Assembly: GCA_002067895.1 (NCBI GenBank)
Contig: MVRE01000006.1
Span: forward strand, 124,001-188,000
Length of the DNA stretch: 64,000 bases
Direction of reading: 5' to 3'
Source of the DNA: Methanoregula sp. PtaU1.Bin051
Lineage (GTDB): Archaea > Halobacteriota > Methanomicrobia > Methanomicrobiales > Methanospirillaceae
Each line of letters begins with the position of its first letter. Position 1 is the first letter of the stretch. The notes beneath the pieces are model-generated. The model was not told the origin of the DNA, made no database searches, and saw only the letters and a program-made list of their open reading frames with translations. Made by a program: the position numbers and the translations under genes. Below, piece by piece: positions 53,711 to 64,000 of the stretch.

Positions 53711-54682
53711 ATGAAGGCTTTTCCCGTTATGCTGGTTCATGTAATCCTTGGGGCAGCCATGGTGCTTGCGGGATGCATATCCACGGAAACAAAAGGAACA
53801 ACCGCCGGCAGGGAAACTGTCCCGGGACAGACCGCCCTGCCCGCCACCACGGGCCCCGGTTATACCGGTGCGGGGGCGACCGATGCCCGTTACATAAACC
53901 TCTCCTGGTTTGTAGACAGAGCCGCCGCGTATGCAAAGGAGCGCGGGAAGGCGGCTGCACTTGCCGAGTTCAATAAAGTAAACGGGTCGTTCATTGAAGG
54001 CGAGCTCTACGTCTTCGCGTACGACATGGACGGAAACACGCTCGCCCTGCCATACCAGCCGGAACTTATCGGCACGAACCGGGCCGGGCTCGCGGATCCC
54101 AACGGGGTTGAATTCATCCAGGCTCTGATCGACGCTGCCCGGGACGGCGGCGGCTCGGTCTATTACATCTATGTGAACCCCGAAGACAACTTCCGGCAGG
54201 AGTTCAAGCTATCCCATGTCATGCCGGTGGACAAGGACTGGTTCGTTGGCTCGGGGATCTACCTGCCCGAAGTGCCGGCCGGGTTCAACGCGACCTCACG
54301 CGGGGAACTTGTTGCGAGGGTGAGGGAGGCACGCGCCTACGCGAAACAGTATGGCGCAGAAAAAGCAATCGCCAGCTTCAATGACAAAAACAGTACGTTT
54401 GCGGACGGGAGCCGGTACATCTTTGCATATGGATATAACGGGACAACGCTCGCGCTCCCGCTCCAGCCGGAGCTTATCGGCACGAACCGGCTGGATTATT
54501 CCGACAGCTACGGGGTGAAAATTTTAACGTGGGAGATTGCCGAGGCAAAGCGCGGTGGTGGGTTCGTTTACGTTGACTACCTCAACCCGGATACTGGAAA
54601 AGCCGAACTGAAACTCTGCTACGTGGAACCGGCGGGCAGCGACTGGTTCGTCGGGTCCGGCATCTACACCGAAGGGCTGTGA
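53711..54682 (+). CDS. Lipoprotein with two Cache-type sensor domains
   Basis: 323 residues. N-terminal lipobox (GAAMVLAGC, Cys at about 21) anchors it; a Thr/Gly linker follows, then two similar single-Cache domains, each with a helix AxAYAKxxGxxxAxxxFN, a G(E/S)xY(V/I)FAYxxxGxTLALPxQPELIGTNR block and a closing DWFVGSGIY. Each binds small ligands in sensor proteins. A histidine kinase gene starts 20 bases after it, so it likely feeds a ligand signal to that kinase. Duplicated domains point to internal duplication. Confidence 0.88.
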   Translation: MKAFPVMLVHVILGAAMVLAGCISTETKGTTAGRETVPGQTALPATTGPGYTGAGATDARYINLSWFVDRAAAYAKERGKAAALAEFNKVNGSFIEGELYVFAYDMDGNTLALPYQPELIGTNRAGLADPNGVEFIQALIDAARDGGGSVYYIYVNPEDNFRQEFKLSHVMPVDKDWFVGSGIYLPEVPAGFNATSRGELVARVREARAYAKQYGAEKAIASFNDKNSTFADGSRYIFAYGYNGTTLALPLQPELIGTNRLDYSDSYGVKILTWEIAEAKRGGGFVYVDYLNPDTGKAELKLCYVEPAGSDWFVGSGIYTEGL

Positions 54683-54701
54683 GCGGCGCCGGGAGGACTC
54701 A

Positions 54702-56540
54702 ATGGATCTGTCGTCAGTCATCCGGACGCGTGATGTTCTCTGGGACGCATTGATCATCGCCACGGCAGCAGCAGTTCTCCTGGTAAATTTATTCGGCCTT
54801 CTCAACGGGATTGCAATCGTCATCCCCCACCTCCTTTACATCCCGGTCGTGATTGCCGCGTACCGGTACCCGCGGTACGGGGGGGTCATCGCCGTCGGTA
54901 TCGGGGCTGCCTACCTGCTGATGATTGTCATTGTCGGGGGAAGCGTGGCGGCCCTCGTTGGGGAGGCATTCGTGCGCGCATGCGTCCTTGTCGTAATCGG
55001 GACGCTCGTCGGCTGGCTCTCCTTCCGGCTCCGTGAGCAGGAGAGCCTGTACCGGGGTCTTTTCGAGCACTCGGAATCGGGCAGCCTCCTCGTTAGGAAC
55101 ACCGGGACCGGGTGGACAATCGAGGCCGCAAACTGGAGGGCGGCAGAACTCCTCCACCGGAAAAACGGGGAGCTGAACGGCGCACCCCTCACTGGAATCT
55201 GGGATAGGGTGAAAGAGGAGGAATTTTTCGGCCGGCTCTCCCGCGATGGGGCGGTCTACGCGGCAGAGACAACGTTTACGCTGCCGGATGAAAAGTCGTT
55301 TACCGTCCTCCTTTCCGCTGCCGCCCTCCCCGGTAAAAGGGCGATCCTCACCTTCGTCGATATCACGGACCGCGTCCGTGCGGAAGAGGCGTTGAAGATC
55401 GCAAACGACAAGTTAAACCTCCTCTCCCGCATCTCGGCAGACCACATCCATTACTCGGTCGACCAGATCCTGGACGTCGCCGATGCAGCAGATGCGCAGT
55501 ATCAGGACGCCGGAATACGGGGGCATATCGACCGTATCAGGACACTCGCGTGGACGATTGCCCGCCGGCTCTTCCTTTCCGAGTCCTACAAGAACCTCGG
55601 CACGTCCCCGCCGGTCTGGATAGGTGTGCAGCGGGCGTTTGCCTCCGCCCGGCCCGTTCCGGATGCCGGTGCGGTATCCGTCAGGATCTGGGCGGAGCGT
55701 CTGGAGGTCTACGCCGACCCGCTGTTCTCCGATGTCCTTGTCCACCTGCTGGAAAATTCCCTGCGCCATGGCGGCACGGTGAAGAATATCGTTGTAACGT
55801 ATCACGAGACAGGAGACGGGCTCGACATCATGCTCACGGACGACGGCACCGGGATCCCAATAGAAAAGAAGGAACGGATCTTCGAGTACGATTCCGGGGG
55901 GCAGGCAGGTCTTGGCCTCTTCATCTGCCGGCAGATCGTCGAGGTGACCGGCATGACGATCCGGGAGACCGGGGCACCGGGGAGGGGGGCGCGTTTTATC
56001 ATCCATGTTCCTCCCGAGCGGTACCGGATCGAAGGGACGGGAGACGACGCCCCGCAATTACCCGTTCCCCCAGCGCCGGGCCGGTATACCGTCCGGCACG
56101 CCACCGGGGTGACGGTGAAGGAGCTCCTCTCTGCGGAATTCCCTCTGGCGGACGCGCTCTGGATCGACTACCACAAGACGACCGGGGACCCCCGCACGGA
56201 CCGGATCTTCGCAGCTTTCCTTGACGGGCAGGCGGTCTCGGTCGCCCGGTGCAGGCGGCATGCGGACGGGCACGAGGTCGACGGGGTCTTCACGCCGGTC
56301 GATCGCCGCGGCCACGGGTACGCCAACGCTGCCGTATGGGGGCTTGTCGAGGCGTGCGGGTGCGATGTCCTCTACATGCACTCTGTCCGGAACCTCGACA
56401 GGTTCTACGGGAACTACGGTTTTGTCCCGATTGACGAGAAGGAGCTCCCGCCCACCATCCGGGAACGGTACGCGTGGGCGCAGGGCGAGATGGAAGGCTC
56501 AAACGTACTGCCGATGAAGAGGGAACCGGAAAAGGGGTAA
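54702..56540 (+). CDS. Membrane histidine kinase fused to a GNAT acetyltransferase domain
   Basis: 612 residues. Order: two to four membrane helices (residues 15-108), PAS (about 115-225, starting SLYRGLFEHSESGSLL), a helical dimerisation region with ISADHIHYSVDQIL at 244-257 in place of the usual archaeal RHDI/NQL phospho-box, ATPase core (N-box LLENSLRHG 349-357, DDGTGIP 380-386, GLGLF 403-407), then about 30 linker residues and a GNAT domain (about 500-585) with RRGHGYA as CoA loop and DRFYGNYGF and ELPPTIRERY at its end. The fusion is unusual. The adjacent two-Cache lipoprotein is a probable input. Confidence 0.88.
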   Translation: MDLSSVIRTRDVLWDALIIATAAAVLLVNLFGLLNGIAIVIPHLLYIPVVIAAYRYPRYGGVIAVGIGAAYLLMIVIVGGSVAALVGEAFVRACVLVVIGTLVGWLSFRLREQESLYRGLFEHSESGSLLVRNTGTGWTIEAANWRAAELLHRKNGELNGAPLTGIWDRVKEEEFFGRLSRDGAVYAAETTFTLPDEKSFTVLLSAAALPGKRAILTFVDITDRVRAEEALKIANDKLNLLSRISADHIHYSVDQILDVADAADAQYQDAGIRGHIDRIRTLAWTIARRLFLSESYKNLGTSPPVWIGVQRAFASARPVPDAGAVSVRIWAERLEVYADPLFSDVLVHLLENSLRHGGTVKNIVVTYHETGDGLDIMLTDDGTGIPIEKKERIFEYDSGGQAGLGLFICRQIVEVTGMTIRETGAPGRGARFIIHVPPERYRIEGTGDDAPQLPVPPAPGRYTVRHATGVTVKELLSAEFPLADALWIDYHKTTGDPRTDRIFAAFLDGQAVSVARCRRHADGHEVDGVFTPVDRRGHGYANAAVWGLVEACGCDVLYMHSVRNLDRFYGNYGFVPIDEKELPPTIRERYAWAQGEMEGSNVLPMKREPEKG

Positions 56541-58894: not shown

Positions 58895-61519
58895 TCAGCC
58901 CTTGTTGTACTCCGCGAGACAGAAGCGGCATCCGTCGTACCCGTGGCGCAGCGCCTGCTGGAGGTCTGAAATTGCCGCCCGGTTCTTCTTACCGATCTTT
59001 GCAGCATAGTTGCACGTATTCTCATGGATCTCCCGCGTCTTCCGGTTCCCGATATAGGGGAATTGTTTAACGGCATACATCTGGGTGACGCGCCCCATCT
59101 CCCTTCCGTCGATGATCTCGGCGACCGCAATCTGGTAGTTCCCGTCCGGTGCACCTTTCGGGATAGTGACCTGGAGCATGGCTCCGAACTTGTCGGAAGG
59201 CTTGATCTTCAGGTTGCGCAGGAATGCCTGCTTTCCTTCGGTCACCTTAAAATACCGGTAGAGATCGGTTTCCCTGATAATCTTCGCGTTTTTCAGCGAT
59301 GCGTCTTCGCTGACGCGTTTCAGGATCCGCAGCATAACGGCCATGCCGGGCGGAAGCTGGGTGAGATCGATCATCAGGTCGGCATAGAGCCGGGTTCTCG
59401 GCCACCCCTGCATCTTGAATTCCATGTCCTGCACGGAATCCGGCAGTGCATCGGTGACATTGAAGTTCTTCCATGTCGCGTTGTTGCTCTCCCGTATAAA
59501 TGAATAGTAATTATCCAGTGTGTGGATGGCCGATGGATCCGGGGCCGGATCACCGGGGGCGTCGATCAGGCCGATGAAGCAGTAGTGCCCGATCCCGGGA
59601 ATCGATGCAGAATCCCAGGTGATCGGGCCGACAATCCCCACGCCCGGCACGCCGATGACCGGGATTACAGCCGGGTTTTGCGGATCCGTTATCTCGTGCC
59701 ATGAAGCCGGCGTCGGGAGCGCGGACACCTCGGACCAGAACACCCGGGCCGTTCCCCCGCCGGGCTGGGCCCCGCGGTTCGTCACTCTCAGGTAAATATA
59801 GTTGTCCTGGCCGGCTTCGACAGGTTGTCCGAGGGCATTGTTCTGCATCGCCGCAGCGCTGCCAAGGTCCCCGACAGGATCGGCAAGCTGCTGGTTATAG
59901 ACAATGATATCGGGGCTGCAGGAGATCCCCCCGCTGGCCAGTGGTTCCGTCCCGTCATCCTGGAGGTTGTCGCGCAGGTACAGGTCACATCCCGCACCCC
60001 CGCCGCCGACGGTCAGGGTCATCGTCTGGCCCGGGACGCTGATGTTGGTTATCTCGAGGGCGGATGCCGTGCCGTCCCACCAGTTGCTGCCGGGCATCGT
60101 TGCAGCGCCGAAAGCCGTGTCCGAGGGCGCGCCGTACAGGTCGGTTGCATCGCCGGGATTGCCGTTATGCAGGGAGTCGTGCTCGAGGTTGAAGAAGCCG
60201 TCGGCCTGTTCGAGCGCACACTCGTAGTGGCTGGCAGCCGTCATCTGTTCGTTGTCATTGCTGCCGTTCTCATCGACATGCCAGATGGCAAGCCCCGCAT
60301 CGGGCAGGGCGGCGTCCCGGCCGCCCTGGATCCGGTTCTCGATAATGAAGTACTCGGTCGGGCTCTTGCTATAGGTCAGGAAATCGTTGATAGTACCATC
60401 GACTAGGTAGTTCCCGGCAACAAGCGCCGTGACCTTGTCGGCCCACCCGGCCTTGTACTTCAGGTACGCACCTACCTGTGTCGGGTTCCCGGCGACGGGT
60501 CCCCCCGATGCCATAAGGCAATAATCCCCGGCGCCGAAGGACTCGTACCCGTAATCATACAGGTCAGGAAAATCGCAGACCATATGGCCGTTCTCATGGC
60601 AGAACGTCGCTAAGGTGAGCACGTTCCCCATGTCGGTGATCTGGTAGTCCATGGCGATCCTGTTGTTGCCGCAGTTTACCTGCGGTTCAAGGTACCACGA
60701 ATGTGGCCAGAGCCCCTCACTCCAGTTGTTCACGCAGGGCCCGGCATAAAACGCGTTGACCGCATAGATGTGGTTGGTGTTGTCCGCGCTCAGCTGGGCG
60801 AAATTGAAGCCGTTTGCTATCAGATCGTTCAACGCCTCGGTGATGAGTTCCCGGGCACGGGTCCCGTACTGTATTGTCGTGTCGGTATAATACGCTCGCG
60901 GGTGCTGCGCGGTATAATACGCTGTGACGATATTGTTGTACAGGAATTTCCCCCCCGATACATCATTGAAATAGCCATAGACGGAGCCATTGTTCCCGTT
61001 CTGGTTGTATCCCTGCAGGTTGCAGAAGTCATCGACCTCTGCCTGCGTGATTGTACCGGCAACATCGGGGAACTGGATGAGCAGGCAGAGGCCGGTATAA
61101 TTACCTGTCCTCTGCTCGCCTGGAGGGGCTCGCGTCACTCCTCTTTTTTTGGGAGCGGCGAGCTTTTTAGCCCGGGCTTCTTCACGGCGCTCCTGCCACC
61201 GGGTCTTCTTTTTTTCCTGCAGGAACGGAGCAGCACGTGCCTGCCGTTTAGCCTCCTGCTTCGGGATGCGCAGGTGCATGTCCATACTCAGCTTTTTTGG
61301 ATCCGCAACACCGACAACTGCACCGGACGGCTCGAGTCGTTTCCCGTCCTTTGACAGTTTTGCGTACTGGTAAAATCCCGTTTTGGGATCCTTTACAATG
61401 GAGAACCCTTTGAGATCCTCGAATACTGCGTAGTGCTGGTTCCCCCAGCCCCGGACCTTGATCTTTTTACCGTCCGGCTGCGTGAAGGAAAACTCCTTCC
61501 CGGCAAATGGCATCGGCAT
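58895..61519 (-). CDS. M6-type metallopeptidase without signal peptide, Ada-like tail
   Basis: 874 residues. The zinc site HENGH (308-312) sits in a family stretch TFCHENGHMVCDFPDLYDYGY, typical of immune inhibitor A-like M6 peptidases; C-terminal beta domains follow. No signal peptide is visible although the family is normally secreted; residues 90-130 are Arg/Lys/Ala-rich. The end YIGNRKTREIHENTCNY...GYDGCRFCLAEYN resembles the Ada-like Cys metal-binding tail also found on secreted proteins. It starts two bases after a 31-residue peptide gene. Confidence 0.85.
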   Translation of the reverse strand: MPMPFAGKEFSFTQPDGKKIKVRGWGNQHYAVFEDLKGFSIVKDPKTGFYQYAKLSKDGKRLEPSGAVVGVADPKKLSMDMHLRIPKQEAKRQARAAPFLQEKKKTRWQERREEARAKKLAAPKKRGVTRAPPGEQRTGNYTGLCLLIQFPDVAGTITQAEVDDFCNLQGYNQNGNNGSVYGYFNDVSGGKFLYNNIVTAYYTAQHPRAYYTDTTIQYGTRARELITEALNDLIANGFNFAQLSADNTNHIYAVNAFYAGPCVNNWSEGLWPHSWYLEPQVNCGNNRIAMDYQITDMGNVLTLATFCHENGHMVCDFPDLYDYGYESFGAGDYCLMASGGPVAGNPTQVGAYLKYKAGWADKVTALVAGNYLVDGTINDFLTYSKSPTEYFIIENRIQGGRDAALPDAGLAIWHVDENGSNDNEQMTAASHYECALEQADGFFNLEHDSLHNGNPGDATDLYGAPSDTAFGAATMPGSNWWDGTASALEITNISVPGQTMTLTVGGGGAGCDLYLRDNLQDDGTEPLASGGISCSPDIIVYNQQLADPVGDLGSAAAMQNNALGQPVEAGQDNYIYLRVTNRGAQPGGGTARVFWSEVSALPTPASWHEITDPQNPAVIPVIGVPGVGIVGPITWDSASIPGIGHYCFIGLIDAPGDPAPDPSAIHTLDNYYSFIRESNNATWKNFNVTDALPDSVQDMEFKMQGWPRTRLYADLMIDLTQLPPGMAVMLRILKRVSEDASLKNAKIIRETDLYRYFKVTEGKQAFLRNLKIKPSDKFGAMLQVTIPKGAPDGNYQIAVAEIIDGREMGRVTQMYAVKQFPYIGNRKTREIHENTCNYAAKIGKKNRAAISDLQQALRHGYDGCRFCLAEYNKG

Positions 61520-62944: not shown

Positions 62945-64000
62945 ATGTCCGATCGTACATGCAGGTTTTTTCTTATAGCAATAGCCCTGCTCTTTATCCT
63001 TGCGCTCTGCCAGCCGGCATCTGCCGCCGCCCGCGACGTAAAGATAGCCGTTCCCGAGCTCAGGCCGATGGTCTTCACCGATGAGCAGGGGAACCCTGCG
63101 GGGATGTTTGTCGACATACTCGAAGATATTGCTGTAAAGGAGGGCTGGAATATCATCTGGGTCCGTGGATCGCTTTCAGAGAGCTGGGATCGCCTGGCTT
63201 CCGGCGATATCGATCTTATCATGGGAGTTGCCGACACGCCGGAACGGCAAAAGCTCTATGATTTCAGCCATGAACCGGCACTTTCTGCATGGTCGCAGGT
63301 CTACGCACCAGGCGGGTCAGGCATCAATACAATCCTGGACCTTGACGGGAAACGGGTCGCTCTGCTCAAAGGGGATGTCAACGGGATCGAGTTCCGCAAT
63401 TACGCAAAGAAGTTCGACATCAATGTAACGTATATCGAGATGGATTCCCTTGACGGGGTCTTTTCGGCGACAGCGGCAGGGAAGGCTGATGCTGTGGTGA
63501 CGTTCAGCCTTGCCGGGGAGCAGTCCGCAAACAAGTACGGCCTTTCCGAGACTACCGTCATGTTCAATCCCTCATCACTTTTTTTTGCGGTGCCGGAAGG
63601 GAAGAACCAGGACCTTCTTACAGCCATCGACCGTTACCTTGCGGAAGGAAAGGGCAACCCCTCGTCCGCGTACAGTCAGACGATGCAGAAATGGTTTGGC
63701 ATGAAGGGCGAGAGCGGGGTGATCCCCTCGTATATCTGGTGGGGTCTTGGGGTCATTGCCGGTCTTGCCGTACTCTTCGTAACCATGAGTTTTTTACTCA
63801 GGCGCGAGGTTAAGAAAAAGACGGCCGAACTCTCCAGGCAGAACGCAGCGCTCCAGTCCGAGGTCGCCCGTCGTACGCGGGTGGAAAAAGAACTGGTCCG
63901 GAAAAATGAAGAACTCTACGCTGCGTACGAACAGCTCACGGCCACGGAAGAGGAACTGCGGGAGAACTACCAGGAACTTTCCCGGAAGGAGCAGGCTCTC
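62945..64000 (+). CDS. Sensor protein with periplasmic-binding-type domain (3' end cut)
   Basis: A signal/membrane helix (FFLIAIALLFILALCQPASA) is followed by a type-3 solute-binding-like domain: KIAVPELRPMVFTDEQGNPAGMFVDILEDIA and DIDLIMGVADTPERQKLYDF. A membrane helix (YIWWGLGVIAGLAVLFVTMSFLL) comes near residue 270, then a coiled coil (KKKTAELSRQNAALQSEVARRTRVEKELVRKNEEL) that leads out of the window, presumably to PAS and kinase domains. A ligand-sensing kinase is likely. ATG 62915 would add ten residues; 62945 is next to AGGGACATGTC. Confidence 0.85.
   Translation, partial: MSDRTCRFFLIAIALLFILALCQPASAAARDVKIAVPELRPMVFTDEQGNPAGMFVDILEDIAVKEGWNIIWVRGSLSESWDRLASGDIDLIMGVADTPERQKLYDFSHEPALSAWSQVYAPGGSGINTILDLDGKRVALLKGDVNGIEFRNYAKKFDINVTYIEMDSLDGVFSATAAGKADAVVTFSLAGEQSANKYGLSETTVMFNPSSLFFAVPEGKNQDLLTAIDRYLAEGKGNPSSAYSQTMQKWFGMKGESGVIPSYIWWGLGVIAGLAVLFVTMSFLLRREVKKKTAELSRQNAALQSEVARRTRVEKELVRKNEELYAAYEQLTATEEELRENYQELSRKEQAL

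Follow-up and report, generated by a model that had tools for sequence, protein, structure and literature searches.

The locus lies in an archaeal genome of 2.31 Mb (Methanoregula sp. PtaU1.Bin051; 23 contigs, 96% complete), from which we analysed one stretch of 64,000 nucleotides, here called the window (contig MVRE01000006.1, positions 124,001 to 188,000; G000:C6:124001-188000 in our notation). Read directly from the sequence, exactly 54702-56540 on the plus strand is an intact open reading frame with an ATG start and 612 codons for amino acids, and the earlier note's description of a histidine kinase fused to a GNAT acetyltransferase is borne out by Pfam, by alignment and by AF2 modelling. 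The gene and its parts are as follows.

54691..54696, plus strand: Shine-Dalgarno-like GGGAGG, 5 nt ahead of the ATG, read from the sequence.
54702..56540, plus strand: whole gene, a TM-PAS-pseudo-histidine-kinase-GNAT fusion of 612 aa; full-length orthologues are 51-74% identical and in one open frame.
54729..55037, plus strand: four-helix membrane region, approximately residues 10-112, DUF4118/MASE-like by weak Pfam matches and AF2 helices.
55098..55370, plus strand: PAS domain, residues 133-223 (PAS_9, Pfam E 2.8e-5).
55365..55592, plus strand: DHp-like two-helix region, residues 222-297 (AF2 helices 222-266 and 270-297; alignment with local histidine kinases).
55431..55457, plus strand: altered H-box ISADHIHYS, residues 244-252, from the gap-free alignment with local kinases.
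55440..55445, plus strand: D247-H248 dyad replacing the canonical His-Asp (orthologues: D in 45/47, H in 44/47).
55731..56018, plus strand: HATPase_c (CA) domain, residues 344-439 (Pfam E 1.2e-17; no variation at N352, D380, G382, G384, G403 or G405 among the fused proteins).
56091..56522, plus strand: GNAT acetyltransferase domain, residues 464-607, from an alignment of 39 sequences, the AF2 model and a fold search.
56307..56324, plus strand: CoA pyrophosphate loop R536-G-H-G539-Y-A541, within RRGHGYA (R536 and G539 do not vary among the 39 aligned sequences).

The full-length AF2 model, computed from an alignment of 13 fused relatives, resolves four N-terminal helices, a PAS fold, a DHp-like two-helix unit, the CA domain and the GNAT domain; the model is only moderate (mean pLDDT 75.6, pTM 0.52) and the interface between kinase-like and GNAT parts is therefore not readable from it. 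A fold search with this model returned PAS/LOV histidine kinases, ZraS and the NifL-NifA complex (9qq6). At the N-terminus, models of the MASE1/DUF4118-type membrane families gave faint Pfam matches only, and sensing is hinted at solely by the PAS and TM regions.

The surroundings of the gene offer no obvious phosphotransfer partner. The earlier note's remark that no response regulator gene is adjacent holds over a much longer range, as the nearest of the genome's 39 REC domains lie ~46 kb and ~62 kb away and none falls within ~45 kb. Neither a conserved operon partner nor a kinase neighbour was found across the fused loci; local synteny, which involves Adenosine_kin, a cation-chloride cotransporter and other genes, does not reach beyond close genera. 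A sigma-type promoter scan was uninformative, as expected for an archaeon. Directly upstream in the window, 53711-54682 (plus strand) encodes a lipoprotein-like protein with two sCache_2 domains and ends 19 nt before the fused gene; the two are possibly co-transcribed, and the product might be a periplasmic ligand binder, but an sCache gene is absent upstream of the other fused loci. Farther along, 58895-61519 (minus strand) holds a large frame of 874 aa that contains the motif CHENGH; judged by sequence alone, its product is probably a secreted metallopeptidase of the M6 type. At the window's far end (~63980-64000 and beyond; G000:C6:187980-188636, L170) lies a histidine kinase whose box reads TGQEIQN in place of TRHDILN and which groups with a degenerate histidine kinase (FRD) encoded directly upstream of a fused HK-GNAT gene at another locus (L194).

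The changed phospho-box that had been noticed in the fused protein is real and can be described more precisely as a switch from His-Asp to Asp-His. ISADHIHYS aligns without gaps to the canonical ITRHDILNQ of kinases from the same genome, with the substitutions R246A, H247D, D248H and N251Y, and the phospho-His column is therefore occupied by Asp247; by this alignment the His-Asp pair of the canonical box is exchanged for Asp-His. The hydrophobic positions -3, +2, +6 and +9 are in register with the local kinases. An alternative register, with H248 in the phospho-His column, was dropped because it breaks that hydrophobic pattern.

We compared 47 unique fused orthologues. For a few of them, truncated or frame-split, the motif itself helped in placing them in the fused class, but that class is also a clade with an SH-aLRT of 99. 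Residue 247 is Asp in 45 (96%), Glu in one, Gly in one and His in none, so that the phosphoacceptor histidine expected of a histidine kinase is missing throughout. Residue 248, in the +1 acidic column, is His in 44 (94%), Tyr in two and Arg in one, and residue 250 is His in 37, Gln in seven and Asn in three. The earlier suggestion of autophosphorylation at H248 or H250 thus fares poorly: phosphotransfer through H250 is unsupported because the residue varies, and H248 sits in the wrong column and is replaced in three relatives. The ATPase core, by contrast, is as complete as first described, with the N, G1 and G2 boxes present in the window protein (Pfam and invariant residues) and the six ATP-box residues listed above intact in 47/47. 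The +4 phosphatase residue, Asn in 76/80 unlinked histidine kinases, is Tyr251 in the window protein; across the fused proteins Arg is the usual residue there. Judged from these residue patterns, the capacity to bind ATP seems to have outlived both the phosphoacceptor and the +4 residue, and the conserved D-H dyad looks maintained rather than drifting.

Kinases that are not linked to a GNAT gave a different picture. In 74/80 unlinked histidine kinase domains from the same superfamily the site is still His, the unlinked kinases of the window's genome keep it with three exceptions (GQE, YQD and QEE), and matched TM-histidine kinase paralogues, which share the TM module and have no GNAT in the surrounding stretch examined, carry RHD in 8/8.

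The C-terminal half is a full GNAT domain, again as the earlier note had it. The Pfam signal in the window copy is weak (Acetyltransf_1 E 0.0027, under the curated cut-off), and among the 25 NCBIfam matches listed for the window protein no model passes its cut-off; none does for the Usp-GNAT and solo GNAT proteins introduced below. The isolated domain was nonetheless modelled with a pLDDT of 90.5 and a pTM of 0.85, and a Foldseek search of the PDB with this model returned 306 matches at E<=0.001, the top ones being GNATs (2r8v, E 8.8e-8), which confirms the GNAT fold at the level of the predicted structure. A sequence search of the PDB with the same part had given only marginal (2ozh, E 0.015; 1xeb, E 0.13) and spurious (ten1, insulin) matches and was replaced by the fold search. 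Across 39 aligned sequences the mean column identity is 64%, and R536-x-x-G539-x-A541 satisfies the GNAT CoA-loop consensus R/Q-x-x-G-x-G/A (PMC8556138). At the position where GNATs usually have their general acid the Tyr is retained, and the GNAT residues, this Tyr and many others beyond the CoA loop included, rank with the most constrained of the fused protein.

We searched a phylum sample of 393 genomes with a GNAT profile, counting E<=1e-20 as a strong match. Strong matches occur in 65/393 genomes, all of them in the window's own order, Methanomicrobiales; at a looser threshold other classes reach general GNAT-level scores only (best 42 bits versus ~230). The worry that the GNAT part might exist only here, or lack its CoA-binding residues in relatives, is dispelled by dozens of intact, full-length fused orthologues in Methanoregula, Methanolinea and related MAGs and by the invariance of R536 and G539. 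The loci fall into five classes. Class A is the TM-PAS-pseudoHK-GNAT fusion itself. In class B, found in Methanoculleus and a few others, a TM-PAS-HK gene is followed directly by a Usp-Usp-GNAT gene, and the phospho-His column is filled by N, S, R, D or Q, and by His in 3/33. In class C an operon runs from CheA (Hpt-HATPase-CheW-REC) through a REC-HK, whose RHD is intact almost everywhere, and a TM-PAS-HK to the GNAT as its last gene, and in some copies an MCP precedes CheA; the TM-PAS-HK has T, L, I or N in the phospho-His column and keeps His in 16/41, and the class includes several fused forms of its own. Class D comprises Usp-Usp-GNAT without a histidine kinase, and class E solo GNATs. The window's genome encodes one class A and one class C locus (G000:C4:384-6000).

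Several further observations accompany this survey. The chemosensory-like class C operon recurs across Methanomicrobiales (G000:C4:384-6000, which is L040, and L041, L065, L066, L119, L121, L124, L127 and others). Usp-Usp-GNAT proteins, with tandem universal-stress-protein domains, are encoded for instance at L031:6015-7247, L048:3820-5127 and L050:4384-5862, with or without a histidine kinase gene directly upstream, and we found no description of them in the literature; at the Methanoculleus-type loci L031 and L047 a glutamine-hydrolysing NAD synthetase lies divergently beside the HK/Usp-Usp-GNAT pair. Solo GNATs of the same subfamily occur within a few kb of HK-linked GNATs (L036:3931-4350, L045:6905-7324, L160:1499-1924), some on the opposite strand. 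Broken fused copies were seen at L005 (G019:C2), with an in-frame TAG in the GNAT, and at L064 (G015:C28), where the GNAT frame is lost by frameshift or truncation.

Phylogenies of both halves indicate a long-standing linkage between one histidine kinase clade and one GNAT subfamily. In the kinase tree all GNAT-linked histidine kinases form one clade (SH-aLRT 99) within a larger family, and in the GNAT tree the HK-linked GNATs split from the unlinked ones (SH-aLRT 95). Class A is a single kinase clade (SH-aLRT 99), and the loss of His in its 47 sequences therefore counts as one event. In other GNAT-linked sub-clades His is replaced by S, N, R, D, Q, T, I or L, and mapping a 'His lost' label onto the tree requires eight changes. 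A test of GNAT linkage against His loss found one independent pair only and so has no power; furthermore, the 16 of 41 class C sisters that retain His mean that its loss is no strict rule of GNAT linkage. The class C fusions are scattered in the GNAT tree, at least three changes being forced by its starred branches. Taken together, these sequence relationships are best explained by one old HK-GNAT partnership that was rearranged, and fused, more than once.

We propose that the fused protein works as a one-component sensor in the membrane, with a pseudokinase that binds ATP, is free of phosphotransfer and gates an acetyltransferase in cis; we regard this reading as somewhat better than an even bet. 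The TM/PAS part would perceive a signal; the HK-shaped module, with ATP bound but with neither phosphoacceptor His nor +4 phosphatase residue, would shift its conformation and thereby turn the C-terminal acetyltransferase on or off; and the GNAT would modify a cytoplasmic substrate, either a protein lysine or a small molecule. Sequence comparison establishes the domain architecture, the missing phospho-His, the retained ATP and CoA-loop residues and the lasting HK-GNAT linkage; that the protein binds ATP, that the two halves are coupled allosterically, that acetylation is the output in the cell and what its substrate would be are inferred, and each step is made plausible by analogy with NifL, DivL and type III GNATs. 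Comparative sequence data make acetylation a well-supported candidate output, because the GNAT is the constant partner of the kinase clade in three gene arrangements, was fused to it repeatedly and keeps both its CoA loop and its Tyr. The earlier note had envisaged acetylation instead of, or in addition to, phosphotransfer to a response regulator; the first half of that suggestion gains from the comparison, and the second does not, given Asp, Glu or Gly in the phospho-His column of 47/47 orthologues and the loss of the +4 Asn. Conformational control of a partner in place of phosphotransfer would be a DivL/NifL-like mode of action. As the window's genome encodes two Hist_deacetyl homologues but yields no match to SIR2, a sirtuin that could serve as the reversing enzyme, an acetylation cycle is possible. 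More tentatively, and with odds somewhat against so broad a statement, Methanomicrobiales may possess a whole class of pathways in which HK-like sensors without phosphotransfer drive a dedicated acetyltransferase subfamily, within one chain, beside Usp-Usp-GNAT or at the end of an MCP-CheA operon, acetylation taking the place of the response regulator.

The chief competitor to a phosphotransfer-free switch is a protein that still works as a kinase by an unusual route, either through autophosphorylation of H248 or in a heterodimer, where its CA domain would phosphorylate the His of a canonical partner. The intact ATP residues would suit either version, the near-constant H248 is a conceivable alternative phosphoacceptor, and a heterodimer is conceivable in class C, where the gene immediately before that of the pseudo-HK encodes a canonical REC-HK that carries RHD. 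Yet the gap-free alignment puts D247 in the phospho-His column and H248 in the +1 acidic one, a register shift breaks the hydrophobic pattern, three relatives do with Tyr or Arg at 248 while all else is intact, and the fused gene has neither a REC domain within ~45 kb nor a conserved kinase neighbour, so that we consider this route unlikely.

Less likely than a route through H248 or a heterodimer is an arrangement in which the GNAT domain is itself the sensor, binding acetyl-CoA or another acyl-CoA and reporting energy or carbon status to the HK-like module, whose output would be protein contact. The dead acyl-CoA synthetase domain of type I/II bacterial GNATs acts as an acetyl-CoA sensor (PMC8556138), which means that CoA-binding domains can be used as input, and the position of the GNAT behind the kinase would be compatible with such a role; however, the strong constraint on GNAT residues, among them the general-acid-position Tyr and many outside the CoA loop, and the occurrence of the same GNAT alone or fused to Usp without any histidine kinase fit an enzyme better than an accessory sensor. 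That a decayed histidine kinase was joined to a GNAT by chance and has no signalling meaning seems very improbable: the weak Pfam GNAT scores of the window copy and the few broken copies (the TAG in G019, the frameshift or truncation in G015) would fit decay, but dozens of intact orthologues, GNATs as similar to one another as the 39 aligned here, the conservation of D247 and H248, and the independent joining of these two partners in fusions and in operons all argue against it.

If the acetyltransferase-gating model is true, the kinase core has become an ATP-dependent switch for an acetyltransferase, and two-component-style sensing is tied directly to acetylation in methanogens. Methanogens encode many sensor kinases, and few of their outputs are known. 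One lineage would now gain a concrete, testable output for archaeal sensors, and the natural series in which His is retained or lost and the partners are fused or split is a means of tracing the change from kinase to pseudokinase. According to a 2018 census, most archaeal two-component systems lack classical output domains, and neither 'GNAT' nor 'acetyltransferase' appears in its main text (PMC5847659). We likewise found no description of an HK-GNAT fusion in open-access papers: the HK-like half and the GNAT half are each of a known kind, and it is their combination that appears to be new.

The closest parallels come from five groups of proteins. The GNAT domain shares its fold with that of N-acetylglutamate synthase and with ElaA and GCN5 (Foldseek E 8.8e-8 to ~1e-6), but with an identity of only 12-18%, which provides no evidence for a common substrate. 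Galperin et al. (2018) described 'nonenzymatic HK-like proteins' of Methanomicrobia that are unable to work as ordinary kinases (PMC5847659); these keep the His and lack the HATPase, the reverse of the fused protein. Caulobacter DivL, a repurposed histidine kinase with Tyr550 at the phospho-His site and no autokinase activity (PMC4211667), shares the replacement of the phospho-His, but it binds ATP poorly and senses DivK~P, whereas the fused protein has fully conserved ATP residues, an Asp at the site and a C-terminal enzyme domain. In Azotobacter vinelandii NifL (PAS-PAS-H-GHKL), the GHKL domain is a sensor of adenine nucleotides, ADP in particular, and exerts its effect through protein contacts (PMC12540587), so that, as proposed here, an HK-like module controls its partner by conformation and without phosphotransfer; NifL, however, is soluble and traps the transcription activator NifA, while the output of the fused protein is probably its own attached acetyltransferase. 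Finally, type III regulated GNATs join an N-terminal regulatory sensor domain to a C-terminal GNAT (PMC8556138, PMC6434083), and the fused protein has the same order in one chain as the cAMP-GNAT MtPat/Rv0998 and the ACT-GNAT AAPatA. It differs from them in a regulatory part that is membrane-bound, built as TM-PAS-DHp-HATPase and, at ~460 aa, larger than the 300-400 aa given for type III (PMC8556138), and in a GNAT subfamily of its own that is seen in one archaeal order only.
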